41,637 nt of DNA, from NCBI GenBank assembly GCA_015058145.1, contig SVCX01000009.1, positions 1 through 41,637 on the forward strand, in the 5' to 3' direction. Positions 7,189 through 17,369 of this stretch are shown here, piece after piece. The notes beneath the pieces are model-generated. The model did not search any database, had not been told where the DNA came from, and saw only the letters and a list, made by a program, of their open reading frames with translations. Source of the stretch: Clostridiales bacterium. GTDB taxonomy: Bacteria; Bacillota; Clostridia; Peptostreptococcales; Anaerovoracaceae. Numbering within the stretch: position 1 is the stretch's first letter; each line of letters starts with the position of its first letter. Made by a program: the position numbers and the translations under genes.

Positions 7189-7779
7189 ATGAGCAAGAAC
7201 AATAAAGGCTACGTTCAGGTTTATACGGGCAATGGCAAAGGCAAGACGACCGCCGCCCTCGGCATCACGATGCGCGCTTCCGGCGCGGGGATGAAGGTCG
7301 CCTTCATACAGTTTATGAAGGCTTTGGGCTACAGCGAGCAGAAGATACTGCCGACGCTTCCCGGCGTCACATGGAAGACCCTCGGCAAACCCTTCTTCAT
7401 TGCAAAAGCAGGAAGCATCTCCGAAGAGGAACTGGCCGGTTACGGCGACTCCTGTGTCGTTTTTGAAGAAGGCAATCCGCCGGCGGATTATGTGAAGATG
7501 ATCCGTGATGGATTCGATGAGGCGCGGGAGATGGTTATGTCCGGCGAGTATGACATGGTAGTGCTCGATGAAATCAACTGCGTCATGTACTTCGAACTGC
7601 TCGACACAAAGGAAGTCCTGGACCTGATTCGGAACAAACCGACTCACACAGAGCTCATTCTCACCGGCCGCTGCGCACCGGAAGAAATCATAGAAGCCGC
7701 CGATCTCGTCACGGAGATGCGCGAAATTAAGCACTACTACAACGAAGGCGTGCAGGCGCGCCGCGGAATCGAGGATTAG
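7189..7779 (+). CDS. cobO: Cob(I)alamin adenosyltransferase (CobA/CobO/BtuR type)
   Basis: A 196-residue P-loop protein of the CobA/CobO/BtuR family. It transfers the adenosyl group of ATP to cob(I)alamin or cobyrinate a,c-diamide to make coenzyme B12. Visible are the P-loop GNGKGKTT (14-21), the Walker-B-like VVLDEIN, and the C-terminal TGRCAPEEIIEAADLVTEM with a final YNEGVQARRGIED that matches the family end. The start is ATG at 7189 with AAGGAGG 8 bases before it; the frame is open further upstream but overlaps the divergent thioesterase. A B12-riboswitch operon lies 5 kb away, so this gene and that operon probably serve the same cofactor. Confidence 0.95.
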   Translation: MSKNNKGYVQVYTGNGKGKTTAALGITMRASGAGMKVAFIQFMKALGYSEQKILPTLPGVTWKTLGKPFFIAKAGSISEEELAGYGDSCVVFEEGNPPADYVKMIRDGFDEAREMVMSGEYDMVVLDEINCVMYFELLDTKEVLDLIRNKPTHTELILTGRCAPEEIIEAADLVTEMREIKHYYNEGVQARRGIED

Positions 7780-9173: not shown

Positions 9174-9206
9174 ACAAAAGAGCCGTCGCTACAAAAGAGC
9201 GACGGC
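9174..9206 (-). terminator. Rho-independent terminator of the B12-riboswitch operon
   Basis: On the minus strand GCCGTCGCT-N7-AGCGACGGC (9198-9206 / 9182-9190) is a perfect 9-bp stem, followed by TCTTTTGTT. It lies 15 bases past the stop of the binding-protein gene and ends that operon before the MFS gene. Confidence 0.85.
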
Positions 9207-9221
9207 CCCTGAAACAGTGAA

Positions 9222-10391
9222 CTACTCTAGTTTTTTCAAGTACTTCAAATCAGTCGGATTCTCTTCCGAGAACAGCTTATGAAAGTCCAATATCATATCT
9301 GCGACAATATCTGTTCTCTGATACATGGCGCTGTCTGTGACCCAACAGTTATTATTCTGAACAGCTGTCATCTTTTTCATGATTGGATCTTTACCTATCA
9401 AATCGTCCATCGTTTTCACAGAGCTATCTATACTGCCATTGTAGATGATATAATCAGCATCCACCGCAGTATCATAAAACGTCTCAATAGATGTATCGAT
9501 AGATGTTCTGCCGCTATCATCATCCAGGTCCTTGAAAATGTATCTCGCTCCTGCGATTTCAATCATCGCAGGAATGTAGTCTGTGCTTCTCCTTACGACC
9601 GCCTTGCCATCAGACGAAATGTAGAAGAACGCAACAGTCTTTTCAGTATTTTCAAAGTCATCTAAGTCTTTAATTGCATCTATTTGCGTTGCGAAGAATG
9701 ATTCTGCCTGCTCTTCGTGATCCGTCAGAATCCCATATAGCTTGATCCATTCTGCTCTGCCCAAAGGATCCGATTCGTAACTAGATCTGTCGACCATAAC
9801 AGGAATGCCAAGATCTTCTAGCATTTCCTGAACTTCCGGTGAATGATCAATCATCGTTGACTCCAGTGCAAGATCACACCCTTCTTTCAGGATGGTTTCA
9901 TAATCCGGCGCACTGTACTTGCCTGCAAATATGATATCCCCTTTTTCCATGGCTTCTTTGGGTTCATCGAAAGTCCATGACTCCTTTGGAACAGAGGACA
10001 TGCGAATATGATCAATGGCGTCCATGGAACAGAACATCGCCATCGTCGCCGTAGCCGCCAGATAGATTGTATCAATCGGTTTCTGCAGAACTATAATGTC
10101 GCTTTCCAGGTTCTCCGGAACCGTTCCATCCTCAGGAACAATTAGAAAGCGCTGAAATCCATGGATGTCTACCAGGTCATAGCCGCCCTCATAACGGTAG
10201 ACGCTGTACTCTGTAGCCCGTTGCAACTCAAGAGTTGATTCGTAGGTCAGTCCATCGATTTTCGGTGCGGTTTCAGTAGCTGTTTCGCCGCCTTCCCCAC
10301 CGCATCCTGTGAAGAGCCCTGCAGTCAACATGCAGAGAGATACCATCAGTGCAATCAGCCTGTACTTTGTTTTCCTGTTATTACTGTTCAT
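9222..10391 (-). CDS. ABC transporter substrate-binding lipoprotein, BtuF/FepB-like (probable cobalamin or corrinoid)
   Basis: A 389-residue lipoprotein. Residues 1-29 are a signal with lipobox LFTGC (Cys30), so it is membrane-anchored. The body has the cluster A-II helical-backbone binding-protein layout. The first lobe contains LIVPEDG, VLQKPIDTIYLAA and GIPVMVDRSSYE; a connecting helix carries AEWIKLYGIL; the second lobe contains EKTVAFFYISSDGKAVVRR and ends with NNCWVTDSAMYQ. That class binds B12, haem or Fe-siderophores. The B12 riboswitch upstream of the operon favours a corrinoid. No BtuC/BtuD partners are in the window. The start lies inside the end of the preceding gene (11-base overlap), which implies translational coupling, and a strong terminator follows. 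Confidence 0.82.
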   Translation of the reverse strand: MNSNNRKTKYRLIALMVSLCMLTAGLFTGCGGEGGETATETAPKIDGLTYESTLELQRATEYSVYRYEGGYDLVDIHGFQRFLIVPEDGTVPENLESDIIVLQKPIDTIYLAATATMAMFCSMDAIDHIRMSSVPKESWTFDEPKEAMEKGDIIFAGKYSAPDYETILKEGCDLALESTMIDHSPEVQEMLEDLGIPVMVDRSSYESDPLGRAEWIKLYGILTDHEEQAESFFATQIDAIKDLDDFENTEKTVAFFYISSDGKAVVRRSTDYIPAMIEIAGARYIFKDLDDDSGRTSIDTSIETFYDTAVDADYIIYNGSIDSSVKTMDDLIGKDPIMKKMTAVQNNNCWVTDSAMYQRTDIVADMILDFHKLFSEENPTDLKYLKKLE

Positions 10392-12888
10392 CTTCTACTT
10401 TTTCCTTTTTATTGTCTTTGACGTATTTGTCGAAAGCCTGAGACGCAGCCTCTTCCTCGCCGTAGATTGCACCATAAACTTTAATCCACTCTGCATCACC
10501 GTAATTCGTCGCTTCGTTCTGAGCACGGTCAACCATGACTGGAACAGACAGCGAAGAATATCTCGTCTGAAGCCTGCGTAGGGTTTTCGTTTTTTCTTTT
10601 GATGCTTCTACTTCTTCATCGGTGCTCTTTTTAGTCACTTTGTCCGGAAGCACTTCCGCCGGAAGGATAACCATGTCCCCTTCTTCCAGAACAATCTTCT
10701 TGAAATCCGGCTTCTCATATTCCCCGATATCATCCATTTTCTGAAGTGCGTCCTTCCTTCCAAGCTGCTCGATTCTGTCGCCTGCCTCCGCTGCAAAGGC
10801 AAAGGTACTGTCTATAGGCTTTTGCACGATGATACAGTCTTTTTCTATTCCGGCAGGAAGTTCTACGCCTTCTGGGACGACCAGATAATTAACGATGTTA
10901 TTCTGATACAGTTCATTGGTAAATTCGTTTTCAGATTTGGCAATCGGCTTTCCGTCTTCATCATATTCGATTTTCTCTTCGCCGTTCACCTCTTCTTCCT
11001 TTGCGTCTTTGTCCGACTCTTTCTTTGGTTTTATATAAAGATCCGTACCTGAACTCTGATCGATTGAAATCAGTGTTATGCCTTGCTCATATTTGAAGAT
11101 TTTGAAATACTTAGCGTATTCGATTTTCGTCTCGCCTTCATTCTCCAAACCAATCAGTTCCGGCGCTTTATCTGACAGTTTGTTTTTATCAATCAGTTCA
11201 CCTTCTCCATCTTTTCCATCTTTACCAGCTGTTGCACCAGCCTTGTAGATGAAAATCTTATACTCAACCCAATGTGGTTGGGACATGGCAGTGGTTCTTC
11301 CGATAATCGTATTGTTGGCATTCAGTTTCACAGGGATGACAAATGTGGAATTTCCGCCACCCTGCTTCGAATATGTTCTGCCGTTCGCGCGGAGAGAATC
11401 ATATTTACTGCTTCCAAAAACTATGGTTGCATAAGCTTTTCCGCCTTTAACTGTAATCTTTGTGCAGTGGATATACGCTAGTCTTCCGGAGCCGCCTGAC
11501 CACCTGAACTTATCCGGTTTATAGACGCCGTCCTTCAGGCTCGTTGAATTGTCGACCTTACTCGTGCCTTTGTTCTTGGCATCCGCCCATTTTTCAATCT
11601 TCTTTTCTTTGTTTTTTTTCTTTTGGGAAGGCACTACAGATGTGCCGCCCTTCACTTTCTGAGCGCCTTTGCTATAGAACATGATCCACTTGTCCGGTCT
11701 CCAAGGATCTGTCGATGGATCAGTATCATGCTCATATTTCCAGGAGTGCGGTGTAATAGTCAATTTCTTGTCCAGGGCTGCAACTGGAATATCGAAGGTG
11801 TAGTATCCGTTGACGATCTTCGCCTTGATCCATTTGTTCTTTCCTGCGCTCCTTGCCTGCTTCGGCGTTCCCATGTAGACATAGTCATATCCTTCTCCGC
11901 TCAGGACGATTGTTGCAGTCATGGTCTTGTTCTTATTGACCTTCAGAATCACCCATGCAGGATCGGTGTTTTTAGGATTGAGATAAAACATCTTCCTGTC
12001 TGTTGTCGCTTTTACCTTCCACGTTCCAACGGTGAGTTTCTGCTTATCTTTACCAGTCGGTTCCGTAGGTTCCGTCGGTTTTGTCGGGTCAGTCGGATTT
12101 GTTTGCTCGTCTGGTTCTGTTGATTCCTCTGGATTCTTAGGGATTACCGTGCTATCATCAATTTTCGAGTTTTCGGATGTCAGTGTGATTGTATAATGAT
12201 AATTAATCCAATGAGGCTGAATCATTGCGACTGATCTGCCGCTGAATGGTTTTTTAACATTCAGTGTGACAGGAACAGAAACCTGTTGATTTCCAATCTT
12301 ATATACGTCCTTACCCTTCTTCTTTGTCTTTGGATCGTACAGTTCAGCTGTTTCGTTGCTGGAAGGCGCTTTCCCCATATAAACATGGGTCATGTTCTCA
12401 CTGTCTGTCGTGAATACCGCAGTAGCTTCGCCATTGACGATAACCACCTTTTCGCAGAAGAAGTTGGCCTTTCCAGTCCCCCCTTCAAACTCAAACTTTT
12501 CCGGTTTATATGTGCCGTCTGACAAATTGGTCGAAGGTTCCTCTTCGCTGCCCTGCTCAGTGCCTTCTTCCCCTTCTGTCCCCGCATTTACGGCATTTTC
12601 AACAGTTTGGTTCTTTGAGCTGTCTGCGGATGCTTCGGGAGTTTCCGCACCTTCGGTTGCTTCTCTCTCGTCATCTGCAACATCTTCCGAAGGTGTTTCC
12701 GAAGGCTGGTCCTCCTCAGCCGGTTCCGAATCAACGGAACCCGGTTCGCCTTCCTGGACGACTATTTCCTTGTTGCCATCAGTATTGGAATTCGGATCAA
12801 CATCATCTGCAAAAGCAGGAACAGACCATGCTAAAGCCACCATGACAGCCAAAACCACTGAAATGAATTTGTTTTTTCTCTGCGTCAT
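10381..12888 (-). CDS. Secreted surface protein: three capture-like repeats plus half of a BtuF-like binding domain
   Basis: An 835-residue secreted protein. Residues 1-28 are a signal peptide ending PAFA-DD, followed by an acidic, Pro/Glu/Ser-rich linker to about 120. Three related domains follow (about 123-236, 283-407 and 451-548). Copies 1 and 3 share DGxYKPxKF, GGxGxxxxxxC and a closing pattern VPVxLN...GRxxAMxQPHWxxY. Copy 2 is diverged but keeps PHSW. A PT-repeat linker (about 250-280) and a Lys-rich linker (about 420-450) separate them. Residues 575-835 match the first lobe and linker helix of the neighbouring lipoprotein (LVVPEG, IIVQKPIDS, VPVMVDRAQ, AEWIKVYGAI) and then stop. There is no lipobox, LPXTG or membrane tail. 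The start is ATG at 12888 (AAAGGG 9 bases before). By context it is a cobalamin-capture protein; the ligand is inferred. Confidence 0.75.
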   Translation of the reverse strand: MTQRKNKFISVVLAVMVALAWSVPAFADDVDPNSNTDGNKEIVVQEGEPGSVDSEPAEEDQPSETPSEDVADDEREATEGAETPEASADSSKNQTVENAVNAGTEGEEGTEQGSEEEPSTNLSDGTYKPEKFEFEGGTGKANFFCEKVVIVNGEATAVFTTDSENMTHVYMGKAPSSNETAELYDPKTKKKGKDVYKIGNQQVSVPVTLNVKKPFSGRSVAMIQPHWINYHYTITLTSENSKIDDSTVIPKNPEESTEPDEQTNPTDPTKPTEPTEPTGKDKQKLTVGTWKVKATTDRKMFYLNPKNTDPAWVILKVNKNKTMTATIVLSGEGYDYVYMGTPKQARSAGKNKWIKAKIVNGYYTFDIPVAALDKKLTITPHSWKYEHDTDPSTDPWRPDKWIMFYSKGAQKVKGGTSVVPSQKKKNKEKKIEKWADAKNKGTSKVDNSTSLKDGVYKPDKFRWSGGSGRLAYIHCTKITVKGGKAYATIVFGSSKYDSLRANGRTYSKQGGGNSTFVIPVKLNANNTIIGRTTAMSQPHWVEYKIFIYKAGATAGKDGKDGEGELIDKNKLSDKAPELIGLENEGETKIEYAKYFKIFKYEQGITLISIDQSSGTDLYIKPKKESDKDAKEEEVNGEEKIEYDEDGKPIAKSENEFTNELYQNNIVNYLVVPEGVELPAGIEKDCIIVQKPIDSTFAFAAEAGDRIEQLGRKDALQKMDDIGEYEKPDFKKIVLEEGDMVILPAEVLPDKVTKKSTDEEVEASKEKTKTLRRLQTRYSSLSVPVMVDRAQNEATNYGDAEWIKVYGAIYGEEEAASQAFDKYVKDNKKEKVEDEQ

Positions 12889-12920
12889 CAAAAAATGCCC
12901 TTTCTTTATGACACGGCGGA

Positions 12921-12944
12921 AACCGCCCGTAAAAACAGGCGGTT
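12921..12944 (-). other. Intercistronic hairpin in the B12 operon
   Basis: AACCGCC (12921-12927) and GGCGGTT (12938-12944) form a 7-bp stem with a 10-base loop, in the 90-base gap between the two surface-protein genes. It has no clean U-run in the minus-strand direction, so it is more likely an mRNA stability element or weak attenuator than a full terminator. Confidence 0.45.
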
Positions 12945-12978
12945 AGCCGCAATAATAATATGAAAATGGGTAGAATTT

Positions 12979-14274
12979 TTATTTAACTTTTACTTTGATT
13001 GTCTTTGTGACTGTTGCTGCTTTGTAATTAGTTGATTTTGCAGCAGTTGCCTTAACCGTAATCTTGTAAGTACCCTTCTTTGTCTTTTTAGCAACTTTAA
13101 TCTTGCCGGTCGTCTTATTGATTGACAACTTCTTGGAGCCACTTACCTTCGCATAGGTGACTTTTGTCTTTGCTCCGGATACAGCTACTTTACTTGTCTG
13201 CTGTGCCTTCTTCTTCAGTTTCTTGAACTTGACAGTCTTCTTCGCCGTTGACATTGTCAGTTTCTGATTTGCAGGATTGATCTTGAATGTCGCGGCCTTC
13301 GTACCTGTGAAGTTACCTTTTCCCGTTACCGTCACCTTAGCTGTACCGGCGTTTGTATTGTTTGCATAGACCACAGTGTAGTCCTTATCCTTCACTAGGT
13401 TTTTGCCACCGAATGATACAGTAACAGCAGGAGTCTGAGCCTTGCCGTTATACGTCTTCGCAGTAATGGCTGCTACAGTTGCACTGTTGATTGAAGCAGG
13501 GTTGATTGTGAACTCAGCAATCTTTGTTCCTGCATAATTATGCTGGACTCCTTCGATTGTTACAATTGCCTTTCCACTGTTTACGTTGTTTTCATACCCC
13601 ACTTTGTAGTCAGTATCTTTGACCAATGTTTTGCCATCGAGCGTCAGTACTACCTCAGGCTCTATTGCTGCACCCGTATACGTATAAGAAGCTGCAGAGA
13701 GAGATCCTTCTGCTCTGGCAAAATTGTATGATTCAGTCAAAACCGTCACATAATAGTTTTTGTTCTTCCAAGTGCCTCCAACAGACATAACGATAGGTAT
13801 CCTTCTGCCAACATCGCTTACAGGGATTTTAAACGTAAACTCCGCAGAGTAAGTTGTTGCACCTTCGTCATTTACGCTTGTATCCGTAATGTTTCCATCA
13901 CTTCCCAAATTGTCTGCTGTAATAGCTAAACTGTCTAAGATTGCAGTTGGATCTTCAGCTTCAGAAGGATATTCTGATAATGCAATCCTGTCATAATTGT
14001 TGCTCTTTGCATATGCGGTCTTAACATGCGCTGTTACTGTGTTGTCATCGTTAACAACAACATATGTTCCCTCGTCTAACAACCTGAACATTCCAATGGA
14101 AGCATATACAATATTATTCGTTGCTCCTTTATCACTGTCTGCGGTTGTTTGGTTGCCCCGATTCCCATCATCATCAAGTGACGTATACGTATACGCAAAC
14201 GCTGATGTACTCATTCCAAATACCAGCATAACTGATAACAATGCGACAAGCATTCTTCTCAAACTTGTTTTCAT
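12979..14274 (-). CDS. Secreted surface protein with N-terminal capture-like domain and Ig-like (MBG/YDG-type) repeats
   Basis: A 431-residue secreted protein and the first gene after the cobalamin riboswitch. Residues 1-27 are a signal peptide (STSAFA-YT). Residues about 53-180 form a beta domain with FRLLDEGTYVVVNDDNTV and FTFKIPVSDVGRRIPIVM, then WKNKNYYVTV. This is the same layout as the repeats in the next gene: a strand with an aromatic ligand-like loop, then IPV...GRR...M...W...Y. Two Ig-like repeats follow (about 195-259 and 272-334), each with YxYTG/TYNGK, GxxLVKDxDYxVxYxNN, GTKxAxFxINPA. A Lys-rich C-terminal domain (336-431) is probably wall-associating. There is no LPXTG. The start is ATG at 14274 with AGAAAGGAAG upstream; the frame upstream runs back through the riboswitch platform and is not coding. 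Confidence 0.78.
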   Translation of the reverse strand: MKTSLRRMLVALLSVMLVFGMSTSAFAYTYTSLDDDGNRGNQTTADSDKGATNNIVYASIGMFRLLDEGTYVVVNDDNTVTAHVKTAYAKSNNYDRIALSEYPSEAEDPTAILDSLAITADNLGSDGNITDTSVNDEGATTYSAEFTFKIPVSDVGRRIPIVMSVGGTWKNKNYYVTVLTESYNFARAEGSLSAASYTYTGAAIEPEVVLTLDGKTLVKDTDYKVGYENNVNSGKAIVTIEGVQHNYAGTKIAEFTINPASINSATVAAITAKTYNGKAQTPAVTVSFGGKNLVKDKDYTVVYANNTNAGTAKVTVTGKGNFTGTKAATFKINPANQKLTMSTAKKTVKFKKLKKKAQQTSKVAVSGAKTKVTYAKVSGSKKLSINKTTGKIKVAKKTKKGTYKITVKATAAKSTNYKAATVTKTIKVKVK

Positions 14275-14346
14275 ACTTTCTTCCTTTCTTGTTGATTGTA
14301 TCAATAACATATATTTGTAATCTGACTTAGATAGGCAGATTGTAAA

Positions 14347-14378
14347 CAAAAAACCCTTTGCGACTTCTCGCAAAAAGG
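14347..14378 (-). terminator. Riboswitch expression-platform terminator
   Basis: On the minus strand a stem built around TTTGCGA-GAAG-TCGCAAA (about 14354-14378) is followed by six T. It lies between the aptamer and the first gene, 75 bases before the start codon. That arrangement indicates transcriptional attenuation: B12-bound aptamer favours termination. Confidence 0.75.
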
Positions 14379-14479
14379 TCATTATCAACAAGTAAGAAAC
14401 ATAGAAAGGAACCCAGTCGGTCATATCCTGCTCTGCATATCATTGACGGAACTTTCTGCGGAAGTTCGTGTATCAATCC

Positions 14480-14675
14480 CAAATCGGCAGGCTTCCTGGC
14501 TTAAGATCATCATCTCCCTGCGCCTTCTCAAATCCTCTCGGACTCAATGGCATCTGCAGGCAGACTCCCTATCACAGTGACCGGATCGCTCAGGTATCTC
14601 ACCTGATTTCCTATTATCCCATTGAGCCCTTAATATGTCAGTTTCTAAATGCTCACCCAACGGGCACCGATCTGA
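14480..14675 (-). promoter_or_regulatory. Cobalamin (B12) riboswitch aptamer
   Basis: The minus-strand sequence carries the conserved blocks of the cobalamin riboswitch in order. They are GGTGCCCGTTGGGTGA near the 5' end, AATGGGA...GGAAATCAGGTGAGA, the junction GGTCACTGTGATAGGGAG, GCCATTGAGTC, GAGAAGGCGCAGGG, and the hallmark B12-box-type AAGCCAGGAAGCCTGCC at the 3' side. ATCGG near 14671 can pair with CCGAT near 14484 to close P1. The B12 box and the GCCA(C/T)TG element are diagnostic. It controls the three surface-protein genes downstream. The central CCACTG is changed to TCACTG/CCATTG, a mild divergence. Confidence 0.92.
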
Positions 14676-14709
14676 TATTAATTTGTTCCTGTGCTTTAAG
14701 CACGGAATT

Positions 14710-14738
14710 ACTGTAGCATGAATCTTAACATTTGTAAA
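14710..14738 (-). promoter_or_regulatory. Promoter of the B12-riboswitch operon
   Basis: On the minus strand TTTACA (14738-14733) and TACAGT (14715-14710) are separated by exactly 17 bases. The start would be near 14703, about 30 bases before the aptamer, which is the expected position for a riboswitch transcript. Confidence 0.6.
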
Positions 14739-15992: not shown

Positions 15993-17369
15993 TTACTGCT
16001 CCCACAGTTCTATTTCTTCTTCATCCGGCACAAACGCCGATCCCACTCCCTCTATCTTTGACTTCAGTCCGTCGAGAACCTGACTTCTGTCGTTAATCAC
16101 TTCCTGCTTCAGCATACTGCTCTCCGGAATGAGAATCGACAAGCCGTAACTTCCTGTGTCCATGATGTCTTCCAGATCACCTTCCTCAAAGCACCATACA
16201 TTTCTGCCGAAGTCATTGATCAGATCCTTCAATTTGCAATCATAATTGAAATCGATCGCTGAGTCCCCTCCGACGAAGAGATTGTCATAAATCTTGTTGC
16301 CTTTGCTTCTCTGCACGCCGATCTGCGTTCCGTTGTCAAGCAGTGTGTTGTTGTGAAACTCACAGTCCTCAGTGAATCCCAGATCTTTGTCATAACCGCC
16401 GAAGCAGAGACCGCACCATCCCTCGCAGTCTGCGATTACGTTATCGTGGACCTCGATCCCGGACACCTTGAACAGCGGGTTGTCATCCGGGCTGTGTTCC
16501 GTCGCCACTTCGATGCCGATGTCGCAGTTGTAGACGAAGTTGTTGTAGATTTCAATATTCTGGCCGCCGTCTACATAGATGCCGTCGGCGCAGAGATCGT
16601 ACTCGCCGTCCTCATAGTAAGCCGGATTGCCGTCGGCGCTGATGTTGAACACCACATTGCCGAAGCACTTGCCGTTTCTCGCCATATCCACATCGTAAGG
16701 ATTCTCGAAATTACTGTCTTCTGCGTGCTCTGCCGTTCCCTCAAAGCCGATCATGTCGATGCCGATGTTGTTGTTGTCATGGATCCGATTGTCGGCAATG
16801 GTGAAGCCATCGATGTTGCCGTTGAGCACCAGGGATTCACTGTCCCCGCACTTGCAGTTCTGCACTTCACACCCGCTTACCGTAATATCCTGTACCGGAG
16901 CCAGGTCGTTGCCCGCGTAGACGCAGATTCCATGAGCGCCCACAACGCCGCTGACGCTGCAATCTTTGATTACAATATTCTGCAGAGGCTCTTCGCCCTG
17001 ATCCGGCGTGCTCTCGTAGATGATGCCGTGGGTTCCGCCCTCGACGGCGATTCCCTCAATGATGACATCGTGCACATTCACCAGATGGATTCCGTAGCTC
17101 GGCGGCAGTTCATCCTCTTCGCCGCTCTGGAATTCACCCGGCGCGACTTTGATGACCGGCGCTGCTCCATCAGCCGCGCGAATGATCGTCGGGCTCTCCG
17201 GTGTTCCGGACATGGATGCGTCCAGTTCCAACGCGCCGTATGTCCCGTCTTCAAGCACTGTTTCTCCTCCGGCTGTTACTTCTATATTCATCGCTTCTTC
17301 CTCTCCGCATGACGCGAATGCAAAACACATGGCTGCCGCAAGCAATGCTGTCAGAATCAGTTTTGTCAT
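15993..17369 (-). CDS. Right-handed parallel beta-helix lipoprotein (possible glycan lyase or glycosidase)
   Basis: A 458-residue lipoprotein: signal 1-20 with lipobox FAFASC (Cys21), so it is anchored on the outer face of the membrane. Residues about 45-430 show short beta-helix coils with N/D ladders, as in pectate-lyase and NosD/CASH-type proteins: [64 protein letters not shown] and [17 protein letters not shown] catalytic set cannot be assigned by eye. It sits between gatZ (1-base gap; its GGAGG overlaps the gatZ end) and the ATPase gene, so it is part of the sugar operon. It probably acts on a host or plant glycan before import. This is inference from place and fold. Confidence 0.75.

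Follow-up and report, generated by a model that had tools for sequence, protein, structure and literature searches.

A cobalamin riboswitch operon encoding NEAT-like surface proteins and its suggested role in cobalt supply for B12 synthesis in Clostridia

Background

In the Isd system, surface proteins with repeated NEAT domains and a membrane-anchored PF01497 lipoprotein serve a FecCD-type ABC importer. NEAT domains are known as haem catchers, in which the haem ligand is a tyrosine pair in the last strand. BtuG and BtuF, which act in corrinoid capture, combine surface capture with a PF01497 binding protein under B12 control. Two proteins of the CbiK family, FetB of P. gingivalis (PDB 9b86; we take it to be identical to IhtB) and CbiKp of D. 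vulgaris (PDB 2xvx), are presumably located outside the cytoplasm. IhtB has been described for haem (PMC13227078), and CbtJKL of Sinorhizobium meliloti is described as a cobalt ABC importer controlled by an adenosylcobalamin riboswitch (PMC7689651).

The window analyzed here, i.e. the whole stretch of DNA under study (41,637 nucleotides from a Clostridiales bacterium of the gut), contains an operon that is comparable to each of these systems. It resembles Isd in its repeated NEAT-like domains at the predicted surface, its PF01497 lipoprotein and its FecCD-type importer; it differs in that the domains fall below the PF05031 cut-off, a B12 riboswitch is present, no LPXTG-like motif (the mark of a sortase-type anchor) occurs anywhere in the secreted proteins P1 and P2, and the association is with B12 synthesis rather than with haem. 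With the cobalt ECF importer CbiMNQO it shares its apparent function and a slot between a cobalamin riboswitch and cbi genes: related locus L162 reads riboswitch-cbiM...cbiK-cbiD, while in L163 the slot is swapped to riboswitch-NEAT-SBP-BtuC-BtuD-cobO-cbiD, where SBP denotes a P3-type binding protein. The proteins themselves are of other kinds than those of CbiMNQO: domains at the surface, a binding protein and an ABC importer of the FecCD type. As in FetB and CbiKp, a CbiK-family protein is apparently placed outside the cytoplasm; FetB/IhtB is tied to haem (9b86 is named a heme-binding protein), whereas the exported CbiK considered here occurs in B12-riboswitch operons with NEAT-like domains. 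BtuG/BtuF is matched in surface capture and a PF01497 binding protein under B12 control. The system is set apart from BtuG by the absence of any Pfam beta-propeller match among the window proteins and by a distribution that speaks against corrinoid scavenging. CbtJKL is alike in its description, that of an ABC importer for cobalt which an adenosylcobalamin riboswitch controls; the passages on CbtJKL mention neither NEAT domains nor an exported chelatase (PMC7689651).

Organization of the operon

The operon comprises a promoter-like site, a cobalamin riboswitch, a terminator and the genes of P1, P2 and the lipoprotein P3 (Table 1). The three genes have the same direction, and the P2 gene shares 11 bases with that of P3. 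The strong Rfam match and the promoter-like site and hairpin flanking it bear out the preliminary description of a cobalamin aptamer with a promoter and a terminator platform. Since the counts of consensus sites are close to chance expectation (14 versus 10.1 for promoter-like and 5 versus 4.5 for terminator-like sites), the case for the promoter and terminators rests on their position.

Table 1. Features of the operon and its surroundings in the window
Feature	Position	Strand	Remarks
Promoter-like site TTTACA-17-TACAGT	14710..14738	-	consensus match only; just upstream of riboswitch
Cobalamin riboswitch aptamer, RF00174	14469..14686	-	92.9 bits, E 5.9e-22; gathering score 31.5
Terminator-like hairpin of expression platform	14354..14377	-	10 pairs, then T run
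P1, secreted	12979..14274	-	431 aa; weak NEAT-like domain and further repeats
Weak NEAT-like domain in P1	about 13729-14103	-	assignment weak
P2, secreted	10381..12888	-	835 aa; three NEAT-like domains and SBP N-lobe
NEAT-like domain, type B, first P2 copy	12172..12528	-	residues 125-236
NEAT-like domain, type A, P2	11677..12036	-	residues 289-383
NEAT-like domain, type B, second P2 copy	11233..11544	-	residues 453-549
N-lobe of P3-like binding protein, P2 C-terminus	10432..10887	-	residues 668-819; without C-lobe; 31% identity, E 1e-16
P3, PF01497 (Peripla_BP_2) lipoprotein	9222..10391	-	
Terminator-like hairpin at operon end	9178..9210	-	13 pairs
cobO/btuR, corrinoid adenosyltransferase	7189..7779	+	opposite strand to operon

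Judged by eye, the N-termini of P1 and P2 are Sec-type signals and that of P3 carries a lipobox; P3 also matches PF01497 (Pfam, E 1e-34). Two secreted proteins and one BtuF/FepB-like lipoprotein, as first proposed, are thus encoded, and the cobO gene reported beyond the operon was found there, on the other strand. The FecCD permease and ABC ATPase of a BtuFCD-type importer are indeed absent from the window operon itself. This lack of a transporter does not extend to relatives, such as L048 and L050, whose operons include BtuC and BtuD, nor to the genome as a whole, in which an SBP-BtuC-BtuD set is present on another contig.

The recurrent beta domain described for both secreted proteins is found in three copies in P2, in the subtype order B-A-B, while the copy in P1 is only weak (family HMM E 0.0028). 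The hhalign value is 14.6%, and full NEAT membership of P1 is not supported. In two relatives, the proteins at the P1 position do match, at 3e-13 and 3e-17. The SBP-like N-lobe at the end of P2 had been overlooked earlier. Its layout, an N-lobe without a C-lobe, recurs in 34 of 80 related loci.

Identity of the recurrent domain

The recurrent domain appears to be a divergent NEAT domain. Paralogs match PF05031 at 8.1e-7 and 1.1e-4, the best of them reaching 29.9 bits against a Pfam cut-off of 32.8, and the window's own domains gave no PF05031 match in Pfam. PF05031 is the commonest Pfam match of the family, obtained with 16 of the 26 members of type B and 10 of the 21 of type A. Four PDB matches at E<=1 were obtained with the type-B profile, the best being weak (0.0077); two of the chains bear the name iron transport-associated domain protein, and the other two we take to be NEAT chains of IsdX1. 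With the type-A profile, the best two of four matches bear the same name, again with a weak best E-value (0.071). Among all families and solved structures, NEAT thus seems the closest to both domain types, at these weak PDB E-values. One tyrosine is invariant in type B (26/26), mostly with His or Val upstream; the PDB alignments end before the last strand, where known NEAT domains have their tyrosine pair.

This homology gives some weight to a haem or iron-porphyrin uptake system, as in Isd and FetB/IhtB, in which the NEAT domains and a CbiK-like lipoprotein would take haem or its iron. The P3 profile points the same way, its sole PDB match being Lmo2184, presumably the Listeria haem protein HupD.

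Related loci

Relatives of P3 were used to fetch 80 loci, of which 70 encode a NEAT-like domain, 65 BtuC, 67 BtuD and 37 CbiK. In relatives, BtuC and BtuD stay linked to the operon, and the gene set is often preceded by an exported version of the cobaltochelatase CbiK. The system is also present in a cultured commensal, Roseburia inulinivorans DSM 16841 (L132). A search for B12-type control placed a riboswitch upstream of the SBP gene, on the same strand, in 56/80 loci, which argues against haem as the cargo. None was found in the other 24, many of which end there and several of which have about 9 kb upstream; in the seven of these 24 that were run against Rfam, no family at all was returned, riboswitch included. 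In L052 and L063 the SBP gene lies opposite longer ORFs.

The preliminary description saw in the operon a wall-spanning corrinoid relay. On this view, cobalamin, cobinamide or other corrinoids would be scavenged by the NEAT-like domains and by P3 and delivered to an importer of the BtuCD type. The cobalamin riboswitch agrees with this, as does the pairing of a PF01497 binding protein with a FecCD-type permease and ATPase, a class that we take to include BtuFCD. In L217, genes of the cobU, cobS and cobT type share one operon with the system.

Distribution among genomes

The main sample consisted of 200 genomes, at least 95% complete, from 199 genera, all within a single family that belongs to the same class as the window's organism. 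An SBP is encoded in 69 of them, and CbiD accompanies it in 68/69, as compared with 48/131 genomes without SBP (p 2e-20). Only one of the 84 genomes lacking CbiD, those that would most need corrinoid import, carries the SBP. The NEAT-like domain is not found mainly in haem or iron operons within this sample: of the 68 genomes that have it, 67 also have a P3-type binding protein and 67 cbiD, as measured by co-occurrence in the genome.

Among the 116 CbiD-positive genomes, a short CbiM is encoded in 6/68 with SBP and 32/48 without (p 5e-11). The contrast holds without the length split (16/68 versus 34/48; p 5e-7) and, in a class sample of CbiD-positive genomes, outside the main family (2/9 versus 48/62; p 0.002). 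With a laxer SBP cut-off of 1e-20, CbiD is missing in 2 of 20 SBP-positive genomes of the class, and the p-value of the CbiM contrast rises to 0.01 for all 79 CbiD-positive genomes and to 0.047 for those outside the main family. On a CbiD tree with 16 independent pairs, CbiM was opposite in 8.9 and the same in 0.0 (median p 0.004, range 0.0005-0.07). The system is thus nearly confined to de novo B12 makers and tends to replace CbiM, the sole cobalt importer scored. Exceptions are the six genomes that keep a short CbiM beside SBP and CbiD, and 16 of the 116 that have neither P3 nor short CbiM. In the window's own genus, where genomes were taken regardless of CbiD, CbiM over the cut-off occurs in 4/19 SBP-positive and 5/18 SBP-negative genomes, i.e. 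without anticorrelation. The window's genome encodes a long CbiM, above the cut-off and named cobalt transporter CbiM by NCBIfam, so its organism need not rely on the present system alone for cobalt. An assignment of the long form to nickel was dropped on account of this name, and the length split is merely descriptive.

Near-restriction to de novo makers and exchange with CbiM are odd for a scavenger. Corrinoid capture, initially the first choice, was therefore demoted to a rival; it fits poorly, and we regard it as unlikely. The preliminary view of an Isd-like surface relay under B12 control is supported, and its domains even seem distantly related to NEAT; scavenged corrinoid as its cargo is doubtful. 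The same restriction and exchange speak against haem.

Exported CbiK

CbiK of the exported type was the only one found in 38/68 genomes with both SBP and CbiD; 17 of these proteins were read, and all 17 have a lipobox. An initial count of 40 was corrected after reading sequences, as the G306 protein is cytosolic and G461 has an extra cytosolic copy. Among B12 makers without the system, 47/48 have CbiK, in 46 of the cytosolic type as judged by span. CbiK that is not exported-only is found in 26/68 genomes with the system and 47/48 without (Fisher p 2e-12; 3e-11 with G341 counted out). For the CbiD-tree test, 26/68 was the coding with the system, and all SBP-negative genomes, G341 and G458 included, were scored as cytosolic. 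This anticorrelation, like that with CbiM, is unexpected for a corrinoid importer, and exported CbiK has no evident role in corrinoid uptake.

The CbiK of L045 matches PF06180 at 3e-63. GHG, TVE and AGDH motifs, with a conserved His, Glu and His that we take to be catalytic, are present in 21/21 exported sequences examined, 19 of which came from an alignment prefiltered for GHG[TS] and AGDHA, the other two (L191 and L200) having been excluded by the start motif of that filter. Exported CbiK was aligned to the cobaltochelatase 1qgo, which it matches (5.2e-29) as well as FetB (9b86; 2.7e-28). The latter match would suit haem uptake, the former would not, and we consider that reading quite improbable.

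Proposed function

The data suggest that what surface systems of this type take up is not B12 but the cobalt needed to make it. We propose, with moderate confidence, that the operon encodes the surface part of a B12-riboswitch uptake system by which de novo B12 synthesis is supplied with cobalt, the metal probably arriving as a cobalt-tetrapyrrole. The riboswitch, the domain homology, the gene order, the tie to de novo B12 genes and the anticorrelation with CbiM and cytosolic CbiK are shown by sequence; transport, the order of the relay and the chemical nature of its cargo are what we infer. The NEAT-like domains of P2, together with its lipoprotein and membrane-anchored paralogs, would bind the ligand at the surface and hand it on to P3. 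Import would then be the task of a permease of the FecCD/BtuC type and an ATPase, whose genes lie on another contig here but within the operon in relatives. High B12 would switch the operon off.

Free Co2+ (or Ni2+) could also be imported, with exported CbiK as a metal chaperone only, SBP-BtuCD taking the metal or a small chelate and the NEAT-like domains holding a non-tetrapyrrole chelate. The same genomic evidence for cobalt (association with B12 makers, CbiM contrast, CbiD tree) applies, and CbtJKL is a precedent (PMC7689651). Against it, CbiK of the exported type, assigned by best BLAST hit alone, is clustered with tetrapyrrole genes in L109 and L135. To our knowledge, the established ligands of NEAT domains and of PF01497/FecCD transporters are tetrapyrroles and metal-chelates, not free metal. 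We hold this possibility to be very unlikely.

Returning to a cobalt-tetrapyrrole, the cobalt-inserting enzyme is apparently placed outside the cell in many species. Because exported-only CbiK in genomes with the system is set against cytosolic CbiK in makers without it, we tentatively suggest, as a rather less probable extension, that cobalt is inserted outside the cell: lipoprotein CbiK would load Co2+ into a surface tetrapyrrole, possibly self-exported sirohydrochlorin, a B12 precursor that would act as a cobalt-catching metallophore, and NEAT, SBP and BtuCD would return the cobalt-tetrapyrrole to CbiL and the rest of the pathway. With regard to such export, an ABC-2 exporter is encoded among sirohydrochlorin genes in the window's genus.

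If cobalt supply is the function, NEAT domains would have been recruited for it, and many gut Clostridia would obtain the metal of B12 via a surface system easily filed as iron or haem transport. The absence of the usual importer CbiMNQO from many gut bacteria that make B12 would then be explained, and a clear prediction would follow as to which gut organisms compete for cobalt. With the exported cobaltochelatase, a step of B12 synthesis would take place outside the cell. In the open-access literature (most subscription papers lie outside this scope), we found no paper joining a NEAT domain with CbiK and cobalamin, with a cobalamin riboswitch or with a sirohydrochlorin cobaltochelatase, nothing on a cobaltophore, and no description of a B12-synthesis step outside the cell.

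Organization of the operon

The operon under study occupies the minus strand, where a cobalamin riboswitch precedes the genes of two secreted proteins, P1 and P2, and of a solute-binding lipoprotein, P3 (see table). Beyond the operon there is an MFS gene, followed by cobO on the opposite strand. A gene at window positions 15993-17369 encodes a secreted protein with right-handed beta-helix/NosD similarity; a gene for a sugar-type ABC ATPase lies directly downstream of it, with isomerase-like genes alongside (isomerase names assigned by eye).

Features of the operon and of related loci
Feature	Location	Strand	Remarks
Promoter-like site	14738..14710	minus	
Cobalamin riboswitch	14686..14469	minus	92.9 bits
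Terminator-like hairpin, between riboswitch and P1	14377..14354	minus	
P1 gene	12979-14274	minus	Sec signal, read by eye
P2 gene	10381-12888	minus	Sec signal, read by eye
Binding-protein N-lobe at P2 C-terminus	10432-10887	minus	31% identity to P3-like protein
P3 gene	9222-10391	minus	lipobox by eye; PF01497, E 1e-34 (Pfam)
Strong hairpin at operon 3′ end	9210..9178	minus	
DrrA/DrrB-like ABC-2 exporter	L047:9521-10710 and L053:7840-9415		loci of the window's genus

Related loci

A scan of named genomes for the P3 family revealed at least 579 relatives, the best 80 of which, chiefly from gut or rumen Clostridia by record title, formed the locus set. Among these best 80 loci, many of them truncated, a NEAT-like domain was found in at least 70, the FecCD-type permease BtuC in at least 65, its ATPase BtuD in at least 67 and the cobaltochelatase CbiK in at least 37. 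A riboswitch was identified upstream on the same strand in 56 of the 80 (model R1). An Rfam search of seven long loci of the set, some of which had contributed to R1, detected it in all seven, and seven loci lacking an upstream R1 match had no riboswitch by Rfam either. Within the window's genus, the window-type operon runs on into BtuC and BtuD in locus L048, and in L050 it starts with an exported CbiK and extends into cbiD and more B12 genes. A compact run in a genome of another family, G165 (L169:464-13420), encodes an exported CbiK, two NEAT proteins, a binding protein, BtuC and BtuD, and then cbiA, cbiC, cbiD, cbiF, cbiG, cbiH and cbiET.

The repeated domain and its fusions

The repeated domain was modelled with an HMM whose seed was picked by eye and then iterated over the fetched loci. 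This HMM distinguished three copies in P2 (residues 125-236, 289-383 and 453-549) and one to four per protein in related genomes. The preliminary description counted one copy in P1 and three in P2; the three were recovered, while the P1 copy is a weak match only. Proteins at the P1 position in genomes G011 and G014 match the HMM at 3e-17 and 3e-13. There are two subtypes, B (motif GG[TS]G ... TTAM ... Y) and A, which are mutually related (hhalign probability 98.3%). The window's own copies have no NEAT match in Pfam. Paralogs from the same genome match PF05031 (NEAT) with E-values of 8.1e-7 (29.9 bits against a cut-off of 32.8) and 1.1e-4, and NEAT was matched by 16 of 26 B members and 10 of 21 A members. 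Comparison of profile B with the PDB (E up to 1) gave four chains, the best at 0.0077; two are named iron transport-associated domain protein, and the other two are presumably the NEAT chains of IsdX1. On the basis of these profile matches, we take the repeated domain to be a divergent NEAT.

The N-lobe of a P3-like protein that ends P2 stands without a C-lobe. NEAT proteins ending in the same manner recur in 34/80 related loci, and nine further loci of the 80 have NEAT joined to an entire binding protein, so an assembly fault is an unlikely cause of the half lobe. These fusions suggest direct hand-over between the two components. In locus L127 (9551-11038) NEAT is in frame with a complete P3-like binding protein, and the arrangement is similar in L103, L104, L111, L123 and L129; no BtuC was found within these six loci beside the fusions, and Rfam gave no match in L103, L104, L111, L127 and L129.

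Distribution of the system and its predicted cargo

The main sample comprised 200 genomes, at least 95% complete, from 199 genera of one family of the window's class, probably Lachnospiraceae as judged by named relatives. A P3-type protein was found in 69, CbiD (a marker of de novo B12 synthesis) in 116, the cobalt importer CbiM in 67 and CbiK in 117; 68 genomes carried the NEAT pair. P3 and NEAT occurred together in 67 genomes, P3 alone in two (G306 and G394) and NEAT alone in one (G458). CbiD was present in 68 of the 69 P3-positive genomes, and a P3-type protein in 1/84 CbiD-negative ones. Among the 116 CbiD-positive genomes, short CbiM was present in 6/68 with P3 versus 32/48 without (p 5e-11), and any CbiM in 16/68 versus 34/48 (p 5e-7). 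Long CbiM had no link with P3 in these genomes (15/68 versus 10/48) or with CbiD in the 200, and both P3 and short CbiM were lacking in 16/116.

The second sample covered the whole class with 242 genomes; it excluded the window's own genome and shared a few with the first. All 14 P3-positive genomes carried CbiD, and short CbiM occurred in 3/14 versus 49/65 P3-negative genomes (p 3e-4); outside the first family, where the samples are independent, the counts were 2/9 versus 48/62 (p 0.002). When weaker P3 relatives were included, CbiD was present in 18/20 and the CbiM contrast was smaller (7/18 versus 45/61, p 0.01, and p 0.047 beyond the first family). On a CbiD tree of 115 of the 116 genomes (G085 omitted), P3 changed state at least 33 times, and a comparison of 16 independent pairs, all on supported branches, showed CbiM on average opposite in 8.9 and the same in 0.0 (median p 0.004, range 0.0005-0.07). 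CbiM and the NEAT/P3 system also occupy the same slot between riboswitch and cbi genes (locus L162 versus L163).

The operon had initially been proposed to capture scavenged corrinoid. A corrinoid scavenger is expected to be commonest in non-makers of B12 and indifferent to CbiM, so the near-confinement to CbiD-positive genomes and the anticorrelation with CbiM argue against this cargo; the pattern resembles that of a cobalt-importer substitute, and the system behaves like a replacement for CbiM. The best-supported reading is a putative NEAT-type surface cobalt system, under B12 feedback, in cells making their own B12. Two observations count against cobalt supply: CbiM anticorrelation is absent within the window's genus (4/19 versus 5/18), and a CbiM-type importer is also present in the window's own genome, where contig C52 (L145:1120-2178) encodes a long CbiM of 352 aa (NCBIfam name cobalt transporter CbiM). 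Tetrapyrroles are among the known cargoes of NEAT, PF01497 and FecCD proteins, and by analogy the cargo of this system would be in tetrapyrrole form.

Exported CbiK

CbiK was found in 47 of the 48 makers (CbiD-positive genomes) without the system, and was of the cytosolic type, by match span, in 46 of them; in the exception, G341, the match spans 852 bases. No signal was seen in the CbiK N-termini read from nine of these makers. Genome G458 (NEAT but no P3) has an additional insert-type copy. Among the 68 makers with the system, 26 have a cytosolic-type CbiK, and 38 yielded only exported-type CbiK, called by an insert in the CbiK domain or by position beside P3; the four without any CbiK indicate that other solutions exist. 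A lipoprotein signal was seen in 17 of the 38 exported-only cases, these being the 17 sequences read. The GHG, TVE and AGDH motifs are kept in all 21 exported forms examined, and the window genome's own exported copy has matches to CbiK 1qgo, FetB 9b86 and 2xvx. A CbiK HMM, which may miss CbiX, detected no further chelatase-like ORF (best E 0.46) in 17 stretches surrounding B12 operons in 15 exported-only genomes or in one such stretch from G165. On the CbiD tree, absence of cytosolic CbiK tracks the system, with pairs opposite in 7.9 and the same in 0.0 (median p 0.008). The boldest reading of these sequences is that cobalt would be inserted outside the cell.

Further components in the window's genome

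Contig C68 of the window's own genome carries cobD, cobQ, cbiC, a P3 paralog (72% identity), BtuC and BtuD, as well as two lipoproteins under a separate riboswitch, one a CbiK and the other a protein with two NEAT-like domains. Contig C58 encodes a cytosolic CbiK and a membrane-anchored two-NEAT protein, together with a DrrAB-like ABC-2 exporter that precedes hemB, hemC and siroheme genes. An exporter of this kind is positioned between cbiL or cbiK on one side and hem/siroheme genes on the other in several members of the genus, and it could act as a tetrapyrrole exporter.
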